Positions 1-25,300 of a stretch of DNA of 39,446 nt are shown here, piece by piece. Origin of the DNA: Treponema sp. (lineage in GTDB: Bacteria > Spirochaetota > Spirochaetia > Treponematales > Breznakiellaceae); NCBI GenBank assembly GCA_031259215.1, contig JAIRLU010000054.1, positions 1 to 39,446 on the forward strand, written 5' to 3'. Within the stretch, counting starts at the first letter, position 1; the number at the start of each line of letters is the position of its first letter. The translations under genes were made by a program, and so were the position numbers. Below the pieces are notes generated by a model. That model was not told where the DNA came from. It ran no database searches and was given only the letters and a program-made list of their open reading frames with translations.

Positions 1-387
1 AAGGCGGCCTACGACGGGGGTGTAAGCGCCATCTTCAGCATCAACCGCGTGAGCCTGCCGTTCACGGAAAACCGCAAACGCGGCAGAAACAACCTGCGCC
101 TGACGGTCGACAACCTGATGCGCTTCATGGCGGTGGTCCGATACAATTATTATCCGTGTATTGTCGTAAACATTGTTTGCTTCCAGGCAATCAAACCATT
201 CACCCGGCAGGTGAAAAGCCGCCGCGTAAACATGATAATGGGCATTCCCCGAAAACCGCCCGCCGCCTTTGTCTGTTACCGCTGTTACCGGAACATACAT
301 CGGCGCCTGCTGGAGCGCTTTGCGTTCCTTTATCGCAACCGCCAAACCGTCGCATACAGCCGGAACGTTATACGACATAAAATCTGA
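1..387 (+). CDS. Probable glycerate kinase, C-terminal fragment (5' end outside window); the family-like part ends near 130 and the frame continues to a stop at 385-387
   Basis: Frame 1 reads KAAYDGGVSAIFSINRVSLPFTENRKRGRNNLRLTVDNLMRFMA, resembling glycerate kinase C-termini. The tail after about 130 does not look like the family. Confidence 0.5.
   Translation, partial: KAAYDGGVSAIFSINRVSLPFTENRKRGRNNLRLTVDNLMRFMAVVRYNYYPCIVVNIVCFQAIKPFTRQVKSRRVNMIMGIPRKPPAAFVCYRCYRNIHRRLLERFAFLYRNRQTVAYSRNVIRHKI
270..373 (+). other. attC-like recombination site (3' half recognisable), integron-like cassette array site 0; left boundary uncertain
   Basis: Shares TTTGTCTG...ACCGCCAAACCGTC...ATACAGCCGGAACGTTATAC with the sites at 1140-1320 and 1954-2183. 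Right core is GTTATAC at 367-373. Confidence 0.5.
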
Positions 388-500
388 AATTTACGGGGGC
401 GGCGGCATCCGTGCCGCCGTTGCGGAACACCATTAAATAACAGTTTTATGAAATCAAACGCATAAAAAAATACTTTGTTGCCAAAATAAAGGAGAAAAAA

Positions 501-1118
501 ATGGCAAGATGTATTGAATGTGGTAGAACGTATAGTCCTATTAGTGGAACTGTTGCTGCTGGGCATACGAGAACTGATCTTTATTGTTCAGCTAAATGTT
601 AGCGAGCAGGGGAAGCGGCGAAAAAAGTCAGGGGGGCGGAGCAGGCTGCAGACATGGGGCGTGCCCTTAGACTGATTGGAATAGCATTTATGGCACTGGT
701 GGCAGTGTTTACAGTGCTTTGTTATAAATTTCCAAAATTTCTAAAGGGAAAAAACAAAAAGCTGTTGTATGCCTATATTATCTTATGGGTTGCTCTTGGT
801 GTTGGCGCAATAGTTTATTTTTCATTTTTTTCTCCGGAAGCAGTTTCCGGTATTAAAACCAAAATTGTTTCAGCTTCTTGTGAAACACAGGATGAATTTG
901 TTACAATCCTTAAAGAAGCATCTTCTAAAGCATCATGGAATGTGATAGAAGGTGAAGAATTTACTACTTATTCCAGGCAAGCTCGTGACGCGGTTAAAGA
1001 GAGAAATTCTGTACTTAAGGATGCCGTATATTTGGTGAGACTTCCAGACAAAATAAATGTTTATGTTTGGTTCAAAACTGAAGACCAAATAACAGCTTAT
1101 GTCTATAAAACAAAATGA
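501..1118 (+). pseudogene. Cassette-borne small zinc-ribbon plus transmembrane protein, interrupted by an in-frame TAG at 600-602
   Basis: Before the TAG: MARCIECGRTYSPISGTVAAGHTRTDLYCSAKC. After it, same frame: RAGEAAKKVRGAEQAADMGRALRLIGIAFMALVAVF... RBS-like GGAG precedes ATG 501. Two hydrophobic segments. Confidence 0.6.
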
Positions 1119-1139
1119 AAATGGCACAGATTTTACGGC

Positions 1140-1320
1140 GCATAACAGGACTGCATGCGCTTCGGGGCCTAAAGGCCCCTCGGCCTCCGCAATGGCTAGG
1201 TCATTCCGCTACGCTTCATTCCCACGCCATTGCTCCGGCACAGTTTGTCGGCCTTGGTCTTTGCTTCGCAAAGCCCTTATCCGGACCGCCAAACCGTCAT
1301 ATACAGCCGGAACGTTATGC
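1140..1320 (+). other. attC-like site 1 (about 181 bp)
   Basis: R''-like GCATAAC at 1140-1146, R'-like GTTATGC at 1314-1320. Internal inverted repeats GCAATGGC/GCCATTGC, CTTTGCTTCGCAAAG and GTTTGTCGG/CCGCCAAAC. Shares GGCTAGGTCATTCCGCTACG with site 2. Confidence 0.7.
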
Positions 1321-1429
1321 GAAATGGGGGCTAAAATTTGTTTGAATATTTTGAATAATTATGTAAAGTGGCTTCCCCACTAGTCGACAAACGAAATAAG
1401 TAAATGTATTGTTGAAAAAAGAGAGGCAT

Positions 1430-1929
1430 ATGAATAAAATTTTTGCATTATGTGGAAAGCCTGGTTCAGGTAAAAGTTATATAGCAAATAAAATTGCGGA
1501 ACATTATAAAAGTATAATATTTTCCGCGGATAAATTAATGAAAGAGAAGTATTTGAAGATAAATTAAAATTATGTAAAGAAATGATTTATGAAATAACTG
1601 ATAATATATTGGAAAATACACAAACAAATATAATATTTGATTTTGGTTTTTGGACGAGAATGGAAAGGAAAAATATAAAAGAACGGTTTAAAAATTATAA
1701 TGTAATATTTGTATATACAAATACAGCCGATAATATACGGTGGGAAAGGGTGGAAAGGAGGAACAATGAAGACTGTATAAATAATTATAATTTTGACAAA
1801 GAAACATTTGATTTTTTATCAAATTTTTTTGAAGAATTTTCTGATGATGAAGAATATATTATATTTGAAAATATGAAGAAATTAATTGTGAAAATAAATA
1901 AAAAAGGAATAAGAAATTATAAAGAGTAA
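1430..1929 (+). pseudogene. Cassette-borne P-loop kinase (AAA_33/zeta-toxin-like), frameshifted near 1545
   Basis: First frame: MNKIFALCGKPGSGKSYIANKIAEHYKSIIFSADKLMKE (Walker A GKPGSGKS), stop at 1565-1567. A different frame continues VFEDKLKLCKEMIYEITDNILENTQTNIIFDFGFWTRMERKNIKERFKNYNVIFVYTN... to 1929. Confidence 0.65.
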
Positions 1930-1953
1930 CATAATGATGTACGCCCCCACTTC

Positions 1954-2183
1954 GCATAACAGGACTGTTAGCGCTTCGCCGCCAGTAGGCGGCTCGTGGT
2001 TCCGGCTGGCTAGGTCATTCCGCTACGGCAACTTCGTTGCCGCCGCGTCCCAGTTTCGCTTGGGAACATTCCCAATCCGTTGATCCGGTACAGTTTGTCT
2101 GCCCTGGAAATGCTGCGCATTTCCTTATTCGGGCCGCCAAACCGTCGTCGAACCGCAGGTTCGCTACAGCCGGAACGTTGTCT
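1954..2183 (+). other. attC-like site 2 (about 230 bp)
   Basis: GCATAACAGGACTG... at 1954, ending CCGGAACGTTGTCT at 2183. Conserved blocks with site 1: GGCTAGGTCATTCCGCTACG, ATTCCCA, TCCGG-ACAGTTTGTC-G, CCGCCAAACCGTC. Confidence 0.7.
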
Positions 2184-6010: not shown

Positions 6011-6145
6011 TGGACTTGTTCAATAACCCGGTTGGTTATCTGCCAACCTGCGGTTAGCTTGCAAGTCTTGCAAAATGCTCCGCATTTTGCTGTTTTTAAG
6101 CGGAAGTTGTTCAGAAACTGAGGTTTCTGAACAACTCTATTATAG
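6011..6145 (-). repeat. Three-hairpin intergenic repeat, copy 1
   Basis: Minus strand: GTTGTTCAGAAACCTCAGTTTCTGAACAAC...AGCAAAATGCGGAGCATTTTGC...ATAACCAACCGGGTTATTGAACAAGTCCA, matching the other copies. Confidence 0.85.
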
Positions 6146-12052: not shown

Positions 12053-12190
12053 TGAGGGTATAGATAGGCGAACAGATCGGGCGTAAGGCCCCAGGGGCTG
12101 AACTCAGTATCGTTCGTAGTGACGAAACGAGAAGATACAAAAGAACCGATAGGGGTCATTAAAGAGAAGGTTTATACCTTATTCATTGAT

Positions 12191-12322
12191 AGAGTTGTTC
12201 GGAAACCTCAGTTTCCGAACAACTTCCGCTTAAAAAACGATAAAAAATGTGGATTTTATTAAGAAATCCGCATTTTTTGGAGACTTGTTCGATAACCAAC
12301 CGGGTTATCGAACAAGTCCAAT
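12191..12322 (+). repeat. Three-hairpin intergenic repeat, copy 2
   Basis: GTTGTTCGGAAAC/GTTTCCGAACAAC; AAATGTGGATTT/AAATCCGCATTT; ACTTGTTCGATAACC/GGGTTATCGAACAAGT. Confidence 0.9.
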
Positions 12323-12383
12323 GACGAGCAGGTTCATACTTTTGCTTGTACGCCCGTGGATTTAGAGAAACCTGCCATAGGGT

Positions 12384-12707
12384 ATGCCTGAAGGGTATTT
12401 GCGGGATACCAGGGAGATTCAGGGCTTATCCTGGGGTAGAACGGTTCAGGAGCTTCGCTTAGGTATAAAAGCCGGGGAAGCTCCTGTTCCTTCTGTATAT
12501 GAAGGAGATGTTTCCCTTTAACTGGAGCGGGCGGTGGTCAAGGCGATGGAGAAGATGCAGATACAGCATAGCAATCCAGAAGGGAAAGCCTTTATATGTA
12601 GCCGCAGACGAGCCCTCACATGGTTTATGATGATTGAACGTACCGGGGTGAAGCGCTTATTATGCCGTGGGGCAGTGAGGCGGGCCAAAGCACAGGGGAT
12701 AACCTGA
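12384..12707 (+). pseudogene. Unidentified ORF with an internal in-frame TAA (12519-12521)
   Basis: MPEGYLRDTREIQGLSWGRTVQELRLGIKAGEAPVPSVYEGDVSL*LERAVVKAMEKMQIQHSNPEGKAFICSRRRALTWFMMIERTGVKRLLCRGAVRRAKAQGIT; protein-like on both sides of the stop. Confidence 0.45.
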
Positions 12708-12750
12708 GCGGGCCTTTTAAGGCGGGATTATATGTATAGCTATACCCATA

Positions 12751-13080
12751 GTGAAGGGATTATTGATGGAAAGGTGGAACATGAATACCGGAGGGACCTT
12801 TGAACCGCTATTGATACGATGTACGGGGTGTATGCAGAATCCCTGTACCCTATCTTGCGGGAGTAATGCGGTAGTTTATATCCGGGGGGATCTGCTATTG
12901 GAGGCTCATAAATGCAGCGTTTGTGAGCGGTTTCAAGAAGTGGCAGGTACCTGTACTGATGGTATACCTCCCTGTATTACCACATGTCATCATTCGGAAG
13001 ACAAAGTTGTGCTTGAAGTCCTGAGTGGAGCACAGAAACGAATAAAAAATGCGGATCTTTTACCGCTGCTGACCTTGTAA
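12751..13080 (+). CDS. Degenerate/short HycB-like Fe-S protein
   Basis: RCTGCMQNPCTLSCGSNAV ... CSVCERF ... PPCITTC; reduced Cys set relative to the HycB proteins on either side. Confidence 0.6.
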   Translation: MKGLLMERWNMNTGGTFEPLLIRCTGCMQNPCTLSCGSNAVVYIRGDLLLEAHKCSVCERFQEVAGTCTDGIPPCITTCHHSEDKVVLEVLSGAQKRIKNADLLPLLTL

Positions 13081-13192
13081 TGCACTATGTCTTGGACCAA
13101 GGGCTTGTGAGAGAGGAAAGCCCTGTGAAACCCATGGTATCTTTCCGGAACCGTAAAAGATTCCGGATAACCCTTTGAGAAGAGGTATTTTG

Positions 13193-13780
13193 ATGAATGG
13201 AGAGCAATCTTGTTTTGTGTTGGCAGATTTGGAAAAATGCATCGGTTGTAGGGCCTGTGAAGTCGCCTGTTTTGCCGCCCATCAGCCGGGGCAACTAAAA
13301 ACCGTTGGGGCGGTTACCACCCCGGTTATTCCCAATCTGTACCTCACCGTGTCGGAACGGGGCCGTATGCCGGTACAATGTCATCATTGTGAAAATGCGC
13401 CCTGCTTACGTTCTTGTGCAACGGGGGCTATTGAACGCCAGGATGGAACCGTTGTAATCAACCGGAAAAAATGTATTGGTTGCAAGAATTGTGTTATGGC
13501 TTGCCCCTTTGGGGCTATTGCAATTCTGGGGGCTAAGGACATGGAGGGGATACGCGATATTTTTGGCCCTGCCGGTGTACCCCAGGATCAAGGGGTCCTT
13601 CGGTTTGTCCACAAATGCGATCTTTGTACTGGTAAACAGGATGGCCCTGCGTGTGTGGCAATCTGCCCTAATCAGGCATTGCGTTTGGTTGATGCGGCTG
13701 TGGAAGTAAACGACAAAAGAATCAAGGCAACCACGGCGCTGGAAGGCGTATCGGACATCGTAAAACAAGGGAGGCAGTAA
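13193..13780 (+). CDS. HycB-like multi-[4Fe-4S] electron-transfer subunit (second)
   Basis: CIGCRACEVAC, CHHCENAPCLRSC, CIGCKNCVMAC, CDLCTG...CVAIC. Confidence 0.9.
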   Translation: MNGEQSCFVLADLEKCIGCRACEVACFAAHQPGQLKTVGAVTTPVIPNLYLTVSERGRMPVQCHHCENAPCLRSCATGAIERQDGTVVINRKKCIGCKNCVMACPFGAIAILGAKDMEGIRDIFGPAGVPQDQGVLRFVHKCDLCTGKQDGPACVAICPNQALRLVDAAVEVNDKRIKATTALEGVSDIVKQGRQ

Positions 13781-13783
13781 ATC

Positions 13784-15172
13784 ATGGCGGTTATTCAAAT
13801 TGATAAAGATATTTGTACCGGATGCCAGGAATGTAGTAAAGTATGTCCGGTATATGCGATTGAAGGTAATCCGCATGAACCCCAGACCATCGTTACCGAG
13901 CGGTGCGTCATGTGCGGACAATGTGTACAGAAGTGCAAGTCGTATATTTCCCTGATTGACCATGGAGTAACGGTTTATGCTCAAAAACGGCAAGAACGGA
14001 ACCTGCCCGATACGGTAACGGAGCCCTTGTTTGCTGCGTATAATGTGAGTCATGTAGAGGAGGTCATCAAAGCATTGCAGGACCCGAATATATTTACTAT
14101 GGTCCAGGCCGCGCCGGCAGTGCGGGTTGGTATTGCCGAAGACTTTGGCTTGCCCCTGGGTACCTTGGCATCGGGAAAAATGGCCGCAGCCTTACGGCGG
14201 CTTGGGTTTAACAAAGTCTATGATACCAATTTCACCGCGGATTTAACCATTATGGAAGAAGGTACCGAATTAGTGAAGCGGGTTACGGAAAAAGGGGTGC
14301 TTCCCATGTTTACCTCCTGTTGTCCAGGGTGGGTGAAATATATGGAAAATAACCATCCTGAACTGACAAAACACCTTTCTTCCTGTAAGAGTCCCCAGCA
14401 AATGGCCGGTGCGGTTTTTAAGACCTATGGAGCAAAACTCAATGGGGTGGATCCGGCTAAGGTATTTACCGTATCGGTTATGCCCTGTACCTGTAAGGCC
14501 TTTGAATGTGACCGGGAAGAGATGAAGGATAGCGGGTATAAAGACGTGGATGTGGTCATTACCACCCGGGAATTGGCGTATATGATTAAAAAGATGGGTA
14601 TTGAGTTCTCTGCACTCCCCGATGAACCCTTTGACCAGCCTTTAGGGGAATATACCGGTGCCGCTACCATCTTTGGGGTTACCGGCGGGGTTATGGAAGC
14701 GGCCATACGCACCGGATATACCCTTATCACCGGCAAGGAACTGAGTGACCGGGATGTGGATATCCTCCCGGTTCGTAGTACTGAAGGATTCCGTACTGCG
14801 GATATTAAGGCCGGGGATCTAACCTTAAAGGTGGGGGTGCTGACCAATTTAAAGAATATCGATCCGATCATCGAGCAACTACAGAACGGTACGTTGAACT
14901 TGCACTTTGTGGAAGTGATGACCTGTCCAGAAGGTTGCGTGAGCGGTGGTGGACAGCCTAAGCTCTTGGTGGACAGTGATAAACCTGCGGCCTATGAAAA
15001 CCGCCGGAAAGCCACCTTTGACCATGATAAGGCGTTGCCTCTGCGGAAGTCCCATGTCAACCCGGCGATCACCCAAATATATAAGGACTTTTTGGAGAAA
15101 CCCAACGGGAAACTCTCCCACAAGCTCTTACATACCAAGTATAAGGGCGGTTCGGCGAGCCATCACGAATGA
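13784..15172 (+). CDS. hydA2: [FeFe]-hydrogenase, short form (HydA2-like, HDCR)
   Basis: Two 4Fe-4S motifs (CTGCQECSKVC, CVMCGQCVQKC); H-cluster motifs TSCCPGW, MPCTCKAFE, EVMTCPEGC. Confidence 0.92.
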   Translation: MAVIQIDKDICTGCQECSKVCPVYAIEGNPHEPQTIVTERCVMCGQCVQKCKSYISLIDHGVTVYAQKRQERNLPDTVTEPLFAAYNVSHVEEVIKALQDPNIFTMVQAAPAVRVGIAEDFGLPLGTLASGKMAAALRRLGFNKVYDTNFTADLTIMEEGTELVKRVTEKGVLPMFTSCCPGWVKYMENNHPELTKHLSSCKSPQQMAGAVFKTYGAKLNGVDPAKVFTVSVMPCTCKAFECDREEMKDSGYKDVDVVITTRELAYMIKKMGIEFSALPDEPFDQPLGEYTGAATIFGVTGGVMEAAIRTGYTLITGKELSDRDVDILPVRSTEGFRTADIKAGDLTLKVGVLTNLKNIDPIIEQLQNGTLNLHFVEVMTCPEGCVSGGGQPKLLVDSDKPAAYENRRKATFDHDKALPLRKSHVNPAITQIYKDFLEKPNGKLSHKLLHTKYKGGSASHHE

Positions 15173-15179
15173 TTCGGCA

Positions 15180-15218
15180 AGCCTCCTTCTCCTTAGCCGA
15201 GGAAGGGGGCTTATCTTT
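15180..15218 (+). terminator. Probable hairpin terminator after hydA2
   Basis: AGCCTCCTTCTC CTTAGCC GAGGAAGGGGGCTT followed by ATCTTT; lies between hydA2 and mobA. Confidence 0.5.
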
Positions 15219-15253
15219 AAGGGGGGCGAGCGGGACTGGAGTAACCCGGGTGT

Positions 15254-15871
15254 ATGGTAATGGGAAGTGCCTTGATCTTGGCGGGCGGCCGAGGTACCAG
15301 AATAGGATATGACAAAAAAAAGTTGGAATTACGGGGAGAAACCGTAATAGCCAGCCTTATAACAAAGCTACAGCCCCTTTTTAGCGAAGTGTTGGTATCG
15401 AGTAATGAACCTTTTACCCATGATCAGGTAGTCGTTCTCCAGGACGAGCTTGGGGCAGGGCCGCTGGCAGGGATATATCGAGGGCTCACCTATTGCAGGA
15501 GTGCGTATCTCTATGTAGTTGCTTGTGATATGCCGTTTATCTCCCTGGCGTATATACGGTATATGCAGGAAGTGATCCGTAAGAAACAGGTGGACGCCTG
15601 TGTTACCCGTAGGGCAGATGGTTTTTATGAACCCTTTAATGCTTTTTTCAATAAGTCTTGTCTTAAACCGATGTATGAGGCCTTGGTAGGGCATACCTAT
15701 AAGATCAGCACCCTCTTGGATCGCTTGCAGTTGCATATCATTGATGCCTCCAGGCTTAACGGGTTTAATCCGGAAGATATGTTTTTTAATATCAACTATC
15801 AAGAAGATTTGGAACTGGCGAAGAGCAAAGCTCAGAGCTGCTCTCTCGAAAGGGAGGCCTGTTCATACTAA
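15254..15871 (+). CDS. mobA: Molybdenum cofactor guanylyltransferase
   Basis: SALILAGGRGTRIGYDKKKLELRGETVIASL nucleotidyltransferase signature; VVACDMPFIS. Adjacent to a molybdo/tungsto-enzyme operon. Confidence 0.85.
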   Translation: MVMGSALILAGGRGTRIGYDKKKLELRGETVIASLITKLQPLFSEVLVSSNEPFTHDQVVVLQDELGAGPLAGIYRGLTYCRSAYLYVVACDMPFISLAYIRYMQEVIRKKQVDACVTRRADGFYEPFNAFFNKSCLKPMYEALVGHTYKISTLLDRLQLHIIDASRLNGFNPEDMFFNINYQEDLELAKSKAQSCSLEREACSY

Positions 15872-15893
15872 GAAAATATGGTATGCTCAAACC

Positions 15894-16223
15894 ATGAAAA
15901 TATCCCAGGAACAACGGAAAAAAATTATCCGCCTTTTCCCCATACAACGAGGAAATGTCAGAGTCGATAACGACCGTTTCCTTGACGCAATCATCTATAT
16001 CTGTGAGAACGGCTGTACATGGCGCTCCCTCCCCGTATCCTTCGGCCCGTGGCATACTATCTATGTCCGTATCAATCGCTGGGCAAAAAGCGGTGTTCTG
16101 GAACGGGTGTTCCAGGCCTTGCGAGAAGAACACATAACAGACAAATCCATACGCGTGGTTTCCCTGGATTCACGTTCCATAAAAGTACATCCTGACGCTA
16201 CAGGAGCATTAAAAAAAAGGTAG
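15894..16223 (+). mobile_element. Truncated IS5-family transposase (orfA-like)
   Basis: MKISQEQRKKIIRLFPIQRGNVRVDNDRFLDAIIYICENGCTWRSLPVSFGPWHTIYVRINRWAKSGVLERVFQAL...SLDSRSIKVHPDATGALKKR. Ends at an A8 run with no orfB visible. Confidence 0.85.
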
Positions 16224-16338
16224 TGTGCAAAAGATGAGGAGTTCTTGGTAAAGAGCGTGATAAAGTGTGGTCTCTAAAGGAATTATAGTGAGAAGAAACA
16301 GATGAACAACGCCTTTCACCCACTACTGATTTTTTTTA

Positions 16339-16474
16339 TTAGAGTTGTTCGGAAACCTCAGTTTCCGAACAACTTCCGCTTAAAAAACGATAAAAAATAT
16401 GGATTTTATTAAGAAATCTACATTTTTTTGGAGACCTGTTCGATAACCAACCGGGTTATCGAACAGGTCCAGTA
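16339..16474 (+). repeat. Three-hairpin intergenic repeat, copy 3
   Basis: Near-identical to copy 2, with the paired change ACCTG/CAGGT in stem 3. Confidence 0.9.
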
Positions 16475-16618
16475 AAACAAGGGATCATTCCCTGGAAAGG
16501 GAACATTTTTCAAACGCTAGAAATGAACCGGATTTTTTACAAAACCTTGCTCCTGATTAAGAGAGAAACATATCGGGGCAGACCTCCCTGAGGGACTGAT
16601 CCTACCCCCGAAGTGTTC

Positions 16619-21111: not shown

Positions 21112-21365
21112 AAAACAAGCCTTATACATTTTTGTAGGATCAATACCGTAGCAGGGGTATCCTATCAAGAATTTCAGAGCTTTTTTCAGCAAGTATCCCT
21201 ATCGGTTATTGGTTCTCCTTAAAATTGGTCTTTGAAAAAGACCAATGGGTACCGTTTATTTAAACTACCGATACCGTGCATACAGGTCTGTTTTGGATAA
21301 TAGACTCGCACGCTTTTCTTGTTCATGATGCATCCATTACCTATTGAAGAATCCATCCTTAAATA

Positions 21366-21493
21366 GCGTTGTTCAAAAACTGAAGTTTTTGAACAAATTT
21401 CGATAAAAAACAGCAAAATGCGAAGCATTTTGCAAGACGTGTGTCGGACTAAAGGCCACGATAACCAACCGGGTTATCGAACAAGTCCAATAA
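21366..21493 (+). repeat. Three-hairpin intergenic repeat, copy 4
   Basis: GTTGTTCAAAAAC/GTTTTTGAACAA; CAGCAAAATGCGAAGCATTTTGC; CGATAACCAACCGGGTTATCGAACAAGTCCAATAA. Confidence 0.88.
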
Positions 21494-24142: not shown

Positions 24143-24401
24143 GCCAGGTGTTTATGAGGCCCACTGTTTGCATACATGATTGAAGATACTATGGATGAAA
24201 AGGCTCTCGCAAGTCTTTTTTCGTAACCCTGCACGGGGTCAACAGGCTGCATTTAAAAGACTTGAAAATAACCCCACATCAAAATCTAAACTTGACTCAC
24301 AAAAATAGTAAGGGGTATTTGGAGAAGCATTGGTTCGGAGATTGCTCGTTTCCCTGCAACCCTCGTAAGGCAAAATCCCTGGTCCATCCCTACTATGTTC
24401 T

Positions 24402-24860
24402 ATGAGACCATTACGTTTGCTCAAACAAGGAGTATGGTACGAAATCCACACCCGTATCAACAACCGGGAACCCCTGTTCCGTAAGCCTCGGGCTTTGGGG
24501 CTCTTTGCCAAGGTCTTCCATGAGACGAAAGGGCGGTTTGTTTTCGAGATTCGGGGCTTGCGTCTTGGGGACGACAGGCTTACGTTTTATATCAAGCCTG
24601 CGGAGGGCATGGAACTTCCGGCTATCATGAAATGGCTGAAACAGGTGTTTGCCCAGCGGTACAACCGTGCCCAAGCACGGGAAGGGCATATCTGGTGAGA
24701 CCGGTATAGGTCGCGGATACTTGAAGGGGAACCGTCTGAAGCGGAGCTTGGGGGGAAAGAGGATATGAGTATAAGGGTCAGACCCCCTTATAGGGAAGCG
24801 GAGACCAAAACCGCTTTTCTACTCCTGTTCCCGCTTCCCCTTGTCCCGACACCCGGATAA
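24402..24860 (+). pseudogene. RAYT-like (REP-associated Y1 transposase family) protein with degenerate HUH and in-frame TGA at 24696-24698
   Basis: YEIHTRINNREPLFRKPRALGLFAKVFHETKGRFVFEIRGLRLGDDRLTFYIKPAEGMELPAIMKWLKQVFAQRYNRAQAREGHIW*DRYRSRILEGEPSEAELG. Confidence 0.65.
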
Positions 24861-25185
24861 GGAGCGCCTATTCGCCCCGTGTTCTATAGCGGTTCCCCTG
24901 TTTGTCCCCAAGAGCAAACTCCTTGGGGAAAAGTCTGTCCTAGAACAGGCAATAAATACAAATATGGGTCAGGTTTAGGGCTTATTGCCTAAGGGCTATT
25001 CGATTGGCTCAAAAAGAAGTCTTTATGAGCCAGCAAGAAATCTCGATGAACCAGCAAGAAGTCTCTGGGGCTCAAAAAAAATACCGGTGAATCCCTTTTC
25101 CGGTATCTCAAGATGTTTGCTATGGGTATCTTCCTCGTCTTTTTTGAAGGGTTGTGCCCATCACTATGGGGTGAACCCTTCTTTA

Positions 25186-25300
25186 ATAGAGTTGTTCAAA
25201 AACTTCAGTTTTTGAACAAATTCCGATAAAAAACAGCAAAATGCGGAGCATTTTGCAAGACTTGTGAGATAACCAACCAGGTTATCGAACAAGTCCAATA
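25186..25300 (+). repeat. Three-hairpin intergenic repeat, copy 5
   Basis: AGAGTTGTTCAAAAACTTCAGTTTTTGAACAAATT...CAGCAAAATGCGGAGCATTTTGC...GATAACCAACCAGGTTATCGAACAAGTCCAATAA. Confidence 0.88.

Follow-up and report, generated by a model that had tools for sequence, protein, structure and literature searches.

The three-hairpin repeat that occurs five times in a 39,446-nt stretch of Treponema sp. DNA (the window) is a transposable element of the MITE type without an enzyme of its own. The window is contig 57 of a 290-contig, 2.73 Mb assembly (a MAG, 77% complete). The repeat represents a MITE family that is new, ordinary in kind and unusual in its hairpin ends. In all likelihood it is mobilised in trans by an IS5-type transposase, with the pairing of its stems kept mainly by template switching and no RNA function needed. 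On this reading, what looked like a conserved RNA structure becomes a family of mobile elements for which there is a likely enzyme, and would provide a compact natural case of compensatory base changes arising without an RNA function; repeat families call for caution in covariation-based RNA discovery.

Copies of the repeat and their fold

The repeat is present at all five of the sites reported in an earlier note on this DNA, with borders AGAG...GTCC (Table 1). When copy 2 is folded as a single strand, exactly the three proposed hairpins are obtained, with z-scores of −13.6 (DNA) and −12.7 (RNA); none of 200 shuffled sequences folded as well. The stem variants that had been quoted are correct, with GG/CC, AG/CT and AA/TT in hairpin 1 and ACTTG/CAAGT in hairpin 3, which is altered by a compensated change to ACCTG/CAGGT in copy 3. 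In these variants the stems do stay paired while their sequence changes, but hairpin 3 is partly unpaired in three of the copies: copies 1 and 4 contain added sequence in its left arm, limiting the pairing to the inner stem, and copy 5 has a 2-nt mismatch.

Table 1. The repeat copies of the window, their hairpins and flanking triplets, and insertion sequences with ends of the same type.
Feature	Position or length	Strand	Description
Copy 1	6012–6138	-	127 bp, AG class; extra segment in hairpin 3; flanking triplets AAT/ATT
Copy 2	12191–12319	+	129 bp, long GG class; AGAG...GTCC
Copy 2, hairpin 1	12192–12225	+	Left terminal repeat and its inverted copy, 4-nt loop
Copy 2, hairpin 2	12241–12279	+	Central, outside the terminal repeats
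Copy 2, hairpin 3	12282–12318	+	Right terminal repeat and its inverted copy, 5-nt loop
Copy 2, flanking triplets	12188–12190 and 12320–12322		GAT (left) and AAT (right), imperfect target duplication
Copy 3	16341–16470	+	130 bp, GG class; flanking triplets ATT/AGT
Copy 4	21365–21488	+	124 bp, AA class; extra segment in hairpin 3
Copy 4, target duplication	21362–21364 and 21489–21491		Exact AAT
Copy 5	25188–25296	+	109 bp, short AA class
Copy 5, target duplication	25185–25187 and 25297–25299		Exact AAT
Insertion sequence L149	901 bp		ATT/ATT duplication
Insertion sequences L165, L171, L172, L177, L180	886–896 bp		Complete, same ends, ANT duplications; from the scan of named genomes
Insertion sequences L202, L203	about 906 bp		Sulfurimonas, more distant; AGACTTCTTTCATAACC ends, same kind of duplication

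The repeat had not been recognised as a named family, and no Rfam family matches it: a search of the window gave no repeat family above the curated threshold, the only match being an FMN riboswitch elsewhere in the window (RF00050, 33549–33715, minus strand, 97.8 bits). The phage and plasmid collections that were searched contain no match to the repeat, and no earlier description was found in targeted literature searches.

In its own genome, the hairpin 1 pattern has 304 forward and 306 reverse matches, while a mirrored control pattern has none. As the pattern is near-palindromic, forward and reverse matches together represent about 300 sites, a density of roughly one per 9 kb. In a BLAST search of 61 related genomes the repeat was located in 29, of which 28 belong to the same GTDB family; the closest named relatives of the MAG are termite-gut treponemes. 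The elements, 109–130 bp long in their own genome and longer in some relatives, are non-coding and predominantly intergenic. In 574 kb of contigs from the own genome, picked because they hold copies, 61 of the 70 copies away from contig ends are located between open reading frames of at least 100 amino acids, though such frames make up 80% of the bases. The neighbouring genes are in tandem for 40 copies, divergent for 15 and convergent for 6, a distribution that tracks intergenic length, with no excess of copies between convergent genes in these sampled contigs. A role as transcription terminator was rejected for lack of this enrichment.

Target duplications and partner insertion sequences

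That the repeat is a mobile intergenic element, as had been proposed, is borne out by its target duplications, by ends shared with insertion sequences and by its placement between genes. In the own genome, the two flanking triplets are identical for 81 of 102 copies, compared with a mean of 55.6 and a maximum of 66 in 500 shuffles, and there is no duplication signal in these copies at lengths above 3 bp. AAT is the commonest triplet, with ATT/ATT (8), ACT/ACT (2), AGT/AGT (2) and AAA/AAA (2) also present; the composition of the flanks is symmetric, giving a TWY-ANT-RWA target. Copies from relatives, each taken in one orientation, have exact triplets in 63 of 77 cases (shuffled mean 37.2, maximum 46). 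The duplication is thus of fixed length, 3 bp (ANT); about 20% of copies are without an exact duplication, which counts against the mobile-element reading. The terminal inverted repeats, AGAG-TTGTTCGRAAACC and GGAC-TTGTTCGATAACC, belong to the least variable parts of the element.

The cleanest empty site is located within a transposase gene. At locus L160 of the own genome, a copy of the repeat (910–1019, flanked by ACT/ACT) interrupts a fragment of a partner-type (PF13359) transposase gene. When the flanks are joined with a single ACT, an open frame (...LPKLSVTDKRYITFKYLREYRTMESIGAEYG...) results, which reads like the related transposase of locus L148. In a congener (G002), the site of copy 2 is without the element in flanking DNA of 94% identity, and copy 3 is absent from the same place in genomes G001 and G007; at these sites the joint is not base-exact.

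Loci of PF13359 (DDE_Tnp_4) transposases carry the MITE-type ends. The complete insertion sequences found there measure 0.86–0.91 kb; they have AGACTTGTTYRATAACC-type ends flanked by ANT duplications and encode a PF13359 transposase. Loci of PF01609 transposases were also considered as partners and rejected, none of 30 having matching ends. The repeat thus shares its ends with an autonomous element in the same or a related genome: at the right end, up to 19 of 22 positions match those of the insertion sequences, while the correspondence at the left end is weaker and only suggestive. The sequence in common is limited to the terminal 20 bp or so, and the complete insertion sequences do not contain inverted copies of their ends.

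The partner transposase is made up of PF13613 and PF13359, the latter recognised at 52 bits (cut-off 24.8). Its best NCBI model is that of the IS5 family (NF033581, E-value 7.5e-26), a match that is below the curated cut-off on the partial protein. Among named relatives, most carriers are termite-gut Treponema or other Spirochaetaceae MAGs, the termite-gut origin being read from sample names. The own genome has two partner-type loci: the L148 transposase is frameshifted at an A-run, and the L160 transposase is truncated by the contig end and has a glutamate at the first acidic site. No intact, demonstrably active partner transposase was found in this 77% complete MAG. The frame break at the A-run is at the same codon in insertion sequences from two genomes (L148, about 1517–1526, GGAAAAAAAACGG; L149, about 838–846, GGGAAAAAAACGG), which suggests programmed frameshifting. 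At another locus (L219, 1502–2192), part of the partner transposase gene lies between two directly oriented copies of the MITE; AAT is found at both outer borders, and the arrangement recalls a small composite element. Fragments of the partner transposase gene are also present in MAGs labelled Planctomycetaceae and Tannerella (L166, L167, L179 and L187), either through transfer between gut bacteria or through mis-binned contigs.

A 3-bp ANT duplication, as seen in the partner insertion sequences, is a hallmark of the ISL2 group. The partner sequences resemble this group in size, in the duplication and, for some of them, in having two open reading frames, which break at the A-run. Its members ISCaa2 and ISCaa3 are 914–916 bp long and contain two open reading frames (PMC3196728); the partner sequences are likewise of about 0.9 kb and, like the group, encode PF13613/PF13359 transposases. 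The MITE differs from these insertion sequences in being non-coding, with only the ends of about 20 bp in common. It is probably moved by an ISL2-like IS5 transposase. In the mechanism we propose, an IS5-family (DDE_Tnp_4, ISL2-like) enzyme would mobilise the MITE in trans, recognising terminal repeats that contain TTGTTC and duplicating 3 bp on insertion at ANT. Each terminal repeat would at some point have gained its own inverted copy, producing a hairpin at each end in addition to the central one.

Prokaryotic MITEs, including Correia, ERIC, QMITE and Chunjie, have been reviewed (PMC10969869). The repeat shares with them its short length, lack of coding capacity, hundreds of intergenic copies, terminal inverted repeats, target duplications, stable stem-loops and presumed derivation from an insertion sequence. 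It differs in that each end is itself a perfect hairpin, composed of the terminal repeat and its own inverted copy, in the third hairpin located between these, and in the existence of single-hairpin versions of 36 bp.

Covariation and the maintenance of stem pairing

Covariation was assessed against a tree-aware null (FastTree, Fitch counts and simulated columns), in imitation of R-scape. Within the own genome, no pair is significant against this null, since the three states of hairpin 1 mark three founder subfamilies, and covariation is equally strong in unpaired columns. Across genomes (104 distinct copies from 18 sources, 2850 column pairs), the top-scoring pair is a stem pair of hairpin 3 (TA 45, CG 30, GC 16), with an E-value of 0.005 over all 2850 pairs. 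Four of the five highest-scoring pairs are stem pairs, with E-values of about 5e-5 to 0.02 if rescaled to the roughly 29 proposed stem pairs. Stem covariation is therefore weak within the own genome, a founder effect, and real across genomes; the earlier note's claim of covariation comes out positive on the second scale and negative on the first. Its further claim, that such covariation implies selection on an RNA or single-stranded DNA structure, is unsupported, the loop inversions and the homogenisation of several arm bases at once being signatures of template switching.

The loops of all three hairpins occur as exact reverse complements: TTCA/TGAA (26/13) in the AA stem class of hairpin 1, CTCA/TGAG in the other two classes (23/2 and 21/1), GGA/TCC (51/4) in hairpin 2 and AACCG/CGGTT (77/1) in hairpin 3. 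A three-base change of a left arm, GTGAG, is mismatched in 10 copies and matched by CTCAC in the right arm of two others. In hairpin 3, 27 matched double changes are counted, compared with about 0.8 expected if the arms were independent; this number includes inherited cells and is inflated by shared descent, so that the true events are fewer. In the single-hairpin forms, the fourth base of AGAG faces another G and is often a C (AGAC), as arm correction would predict. Exact loop inversions and copying of several bases between arms point to template switching at replication rather than to RNA selection. Switching between the arms would copy one arm onto the other and sometimes flip the loop, and the stems would remain paired mainly for this reason. 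Arm homogenisation, matched changes of several nucleotides and inversion of the loop (spacer) have been described in the evolution of hairpins by template switching (PMC8794818, PMC8604942). Those studies cover rRNA, microRNA and coding genes, whereas here about 100 copies of a repeat within one bacterial genome are compared.

Pairing could instead be maintained by selection on the hairpin ends during amplification, and not by mutation bias, for example if four transposase-binding sites or an extruded hairpin raised transposition. This is possible, if clearly the less favoured option. The architecture is kept across genera while the sequence changes, and three of the four classes have their strongest conservation in the outer repeats, both of which fit such selection. 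However, mismatched arms are common and copies that have them still multiplied (for instance GACTTGTGAG/CGAACAAGTC in 10 copies), and the absence of inverted end copies from the complete insertion sequences argues that hairpin ends are not required by the transposase.

A structured RNA, attenuator or terminator, in which three transcribed hairpins are kept by selection, is improbable. Selection on a structure would likewise produce the covariation seen across genomes, which counts against template switching, and the very stable fold of copy 2, the rank of the stem pairs and the T-run that ends hairpin 2 in the long class agree with an RNA role. On the other hand, placement follows intergenic length, the loops invert freely and, outside the terminal repeats, paired sites show no consistent reduction in variability relative to unpaired sites. 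Hairpin 2 is wholly different between genomes, a terminator scan of 12100–16600 made no call at the copies themselves, and congeners lack the copies at the two sites examined.

HUH (Y1) transposition is not expected to yield 3-bp target duplications. REP/BIME-like palindromes moved as single-stranded hairpins by a Y1 transposase (RAYT or IS200/IS605) are the least credible explanation, even with 19 Y1_Tnp matches in the own genome (one in the window, at 24432–24734) and 36-bp forms that resemble REPs: no such hairpin ends were seen at the five independent Y1 loci that were inspected beyond the window, the one in the window merely has copy 5 nearby, and the transposases of the insertion sequences that share the repeat's ends are of the DDE type. 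The repeat does resemble REP/BIME sequences with their RAYTs in being a high-copy intergenic palindrome, above all in the single-hairpin forms, but here target duplications are present, the partner is of the DDE type and no Y1 gene flanked by the palindromes is linked to them at the loci inspected; a Y1 or RAYT partner was rejected. The earlier suggestion of mobilisation through a folded intermediate likewise finds no support, the 3-bp duplications fitting double-strand DDE transposition rather than a single-stranded intermediate.

Single-hairpin forms and other features of the window

In the sampled contigs, 10 of 100 hairpin 1 sites are without a hairpin 3 nearby. Among them are copies left incomplete by a contig end, but others are complete 36-bp units, AGA[G/C]-TTGTTC...GAACAA-GTCC, with exact duplications of their own. 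Each unit is equivalent to two 16-bp ends of the insertion sequence around a 4-nt loop. Exact triplets, among them ACA/ACA and AAG/AAG, flank 37 of 46 such units over five genomes; in the own genome the count is 17 of 19.

Either these units arose by deletion or they are mobile elements of exceptionally small size; independent mobility is rather doubtful. A deletion between the GAACAA repeats of hairpins 1 and 3 would yield an identical 36-bp product. The AGAC end, frequent in the single forms and not seen in the tabulated full copies of the own genome, speaks, like the exact triplets, for independent mobility, but it can also be accounted for by arm homogenisation. The AA type makes up about 40% of full copies and is absent among the GTCC-ended single forms of the own genome, which argues mildly for separate lineages; as a counterpoint, the AA class seems to be young, and its direct repeat is shorter. 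If independently mobile, the units would be among the smallest DDE-moved elements known and offer a DDE-type route to REP-like palindromes; the full MITE would then consist of two of these hairpins with a central one between them. They pose the testable question of how small a DDE-mobilised element can be, and that of whether IS5-type transposases can give rise to REP-like palindromes.

Two other features of the window were observed. A repeated element located at 24285–24981 is about 0.7 kb long and contains a Y1 (IS200/IS605-type) transposase. It has about 19 matches in the own genome, and the five other copies that were compared are 89–95% identical; the copy in the window has an in-frame stop, and its ends differ from those of the MITE. 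Near the start of the window (317–2150) there are direct repeats that have long inverted repeats and cores like CGCATAACA...GGAACGTTATGCG. These resemble the integron attC sites of a cassette array, and the segments between the direct repeats contain only small open reading frames.
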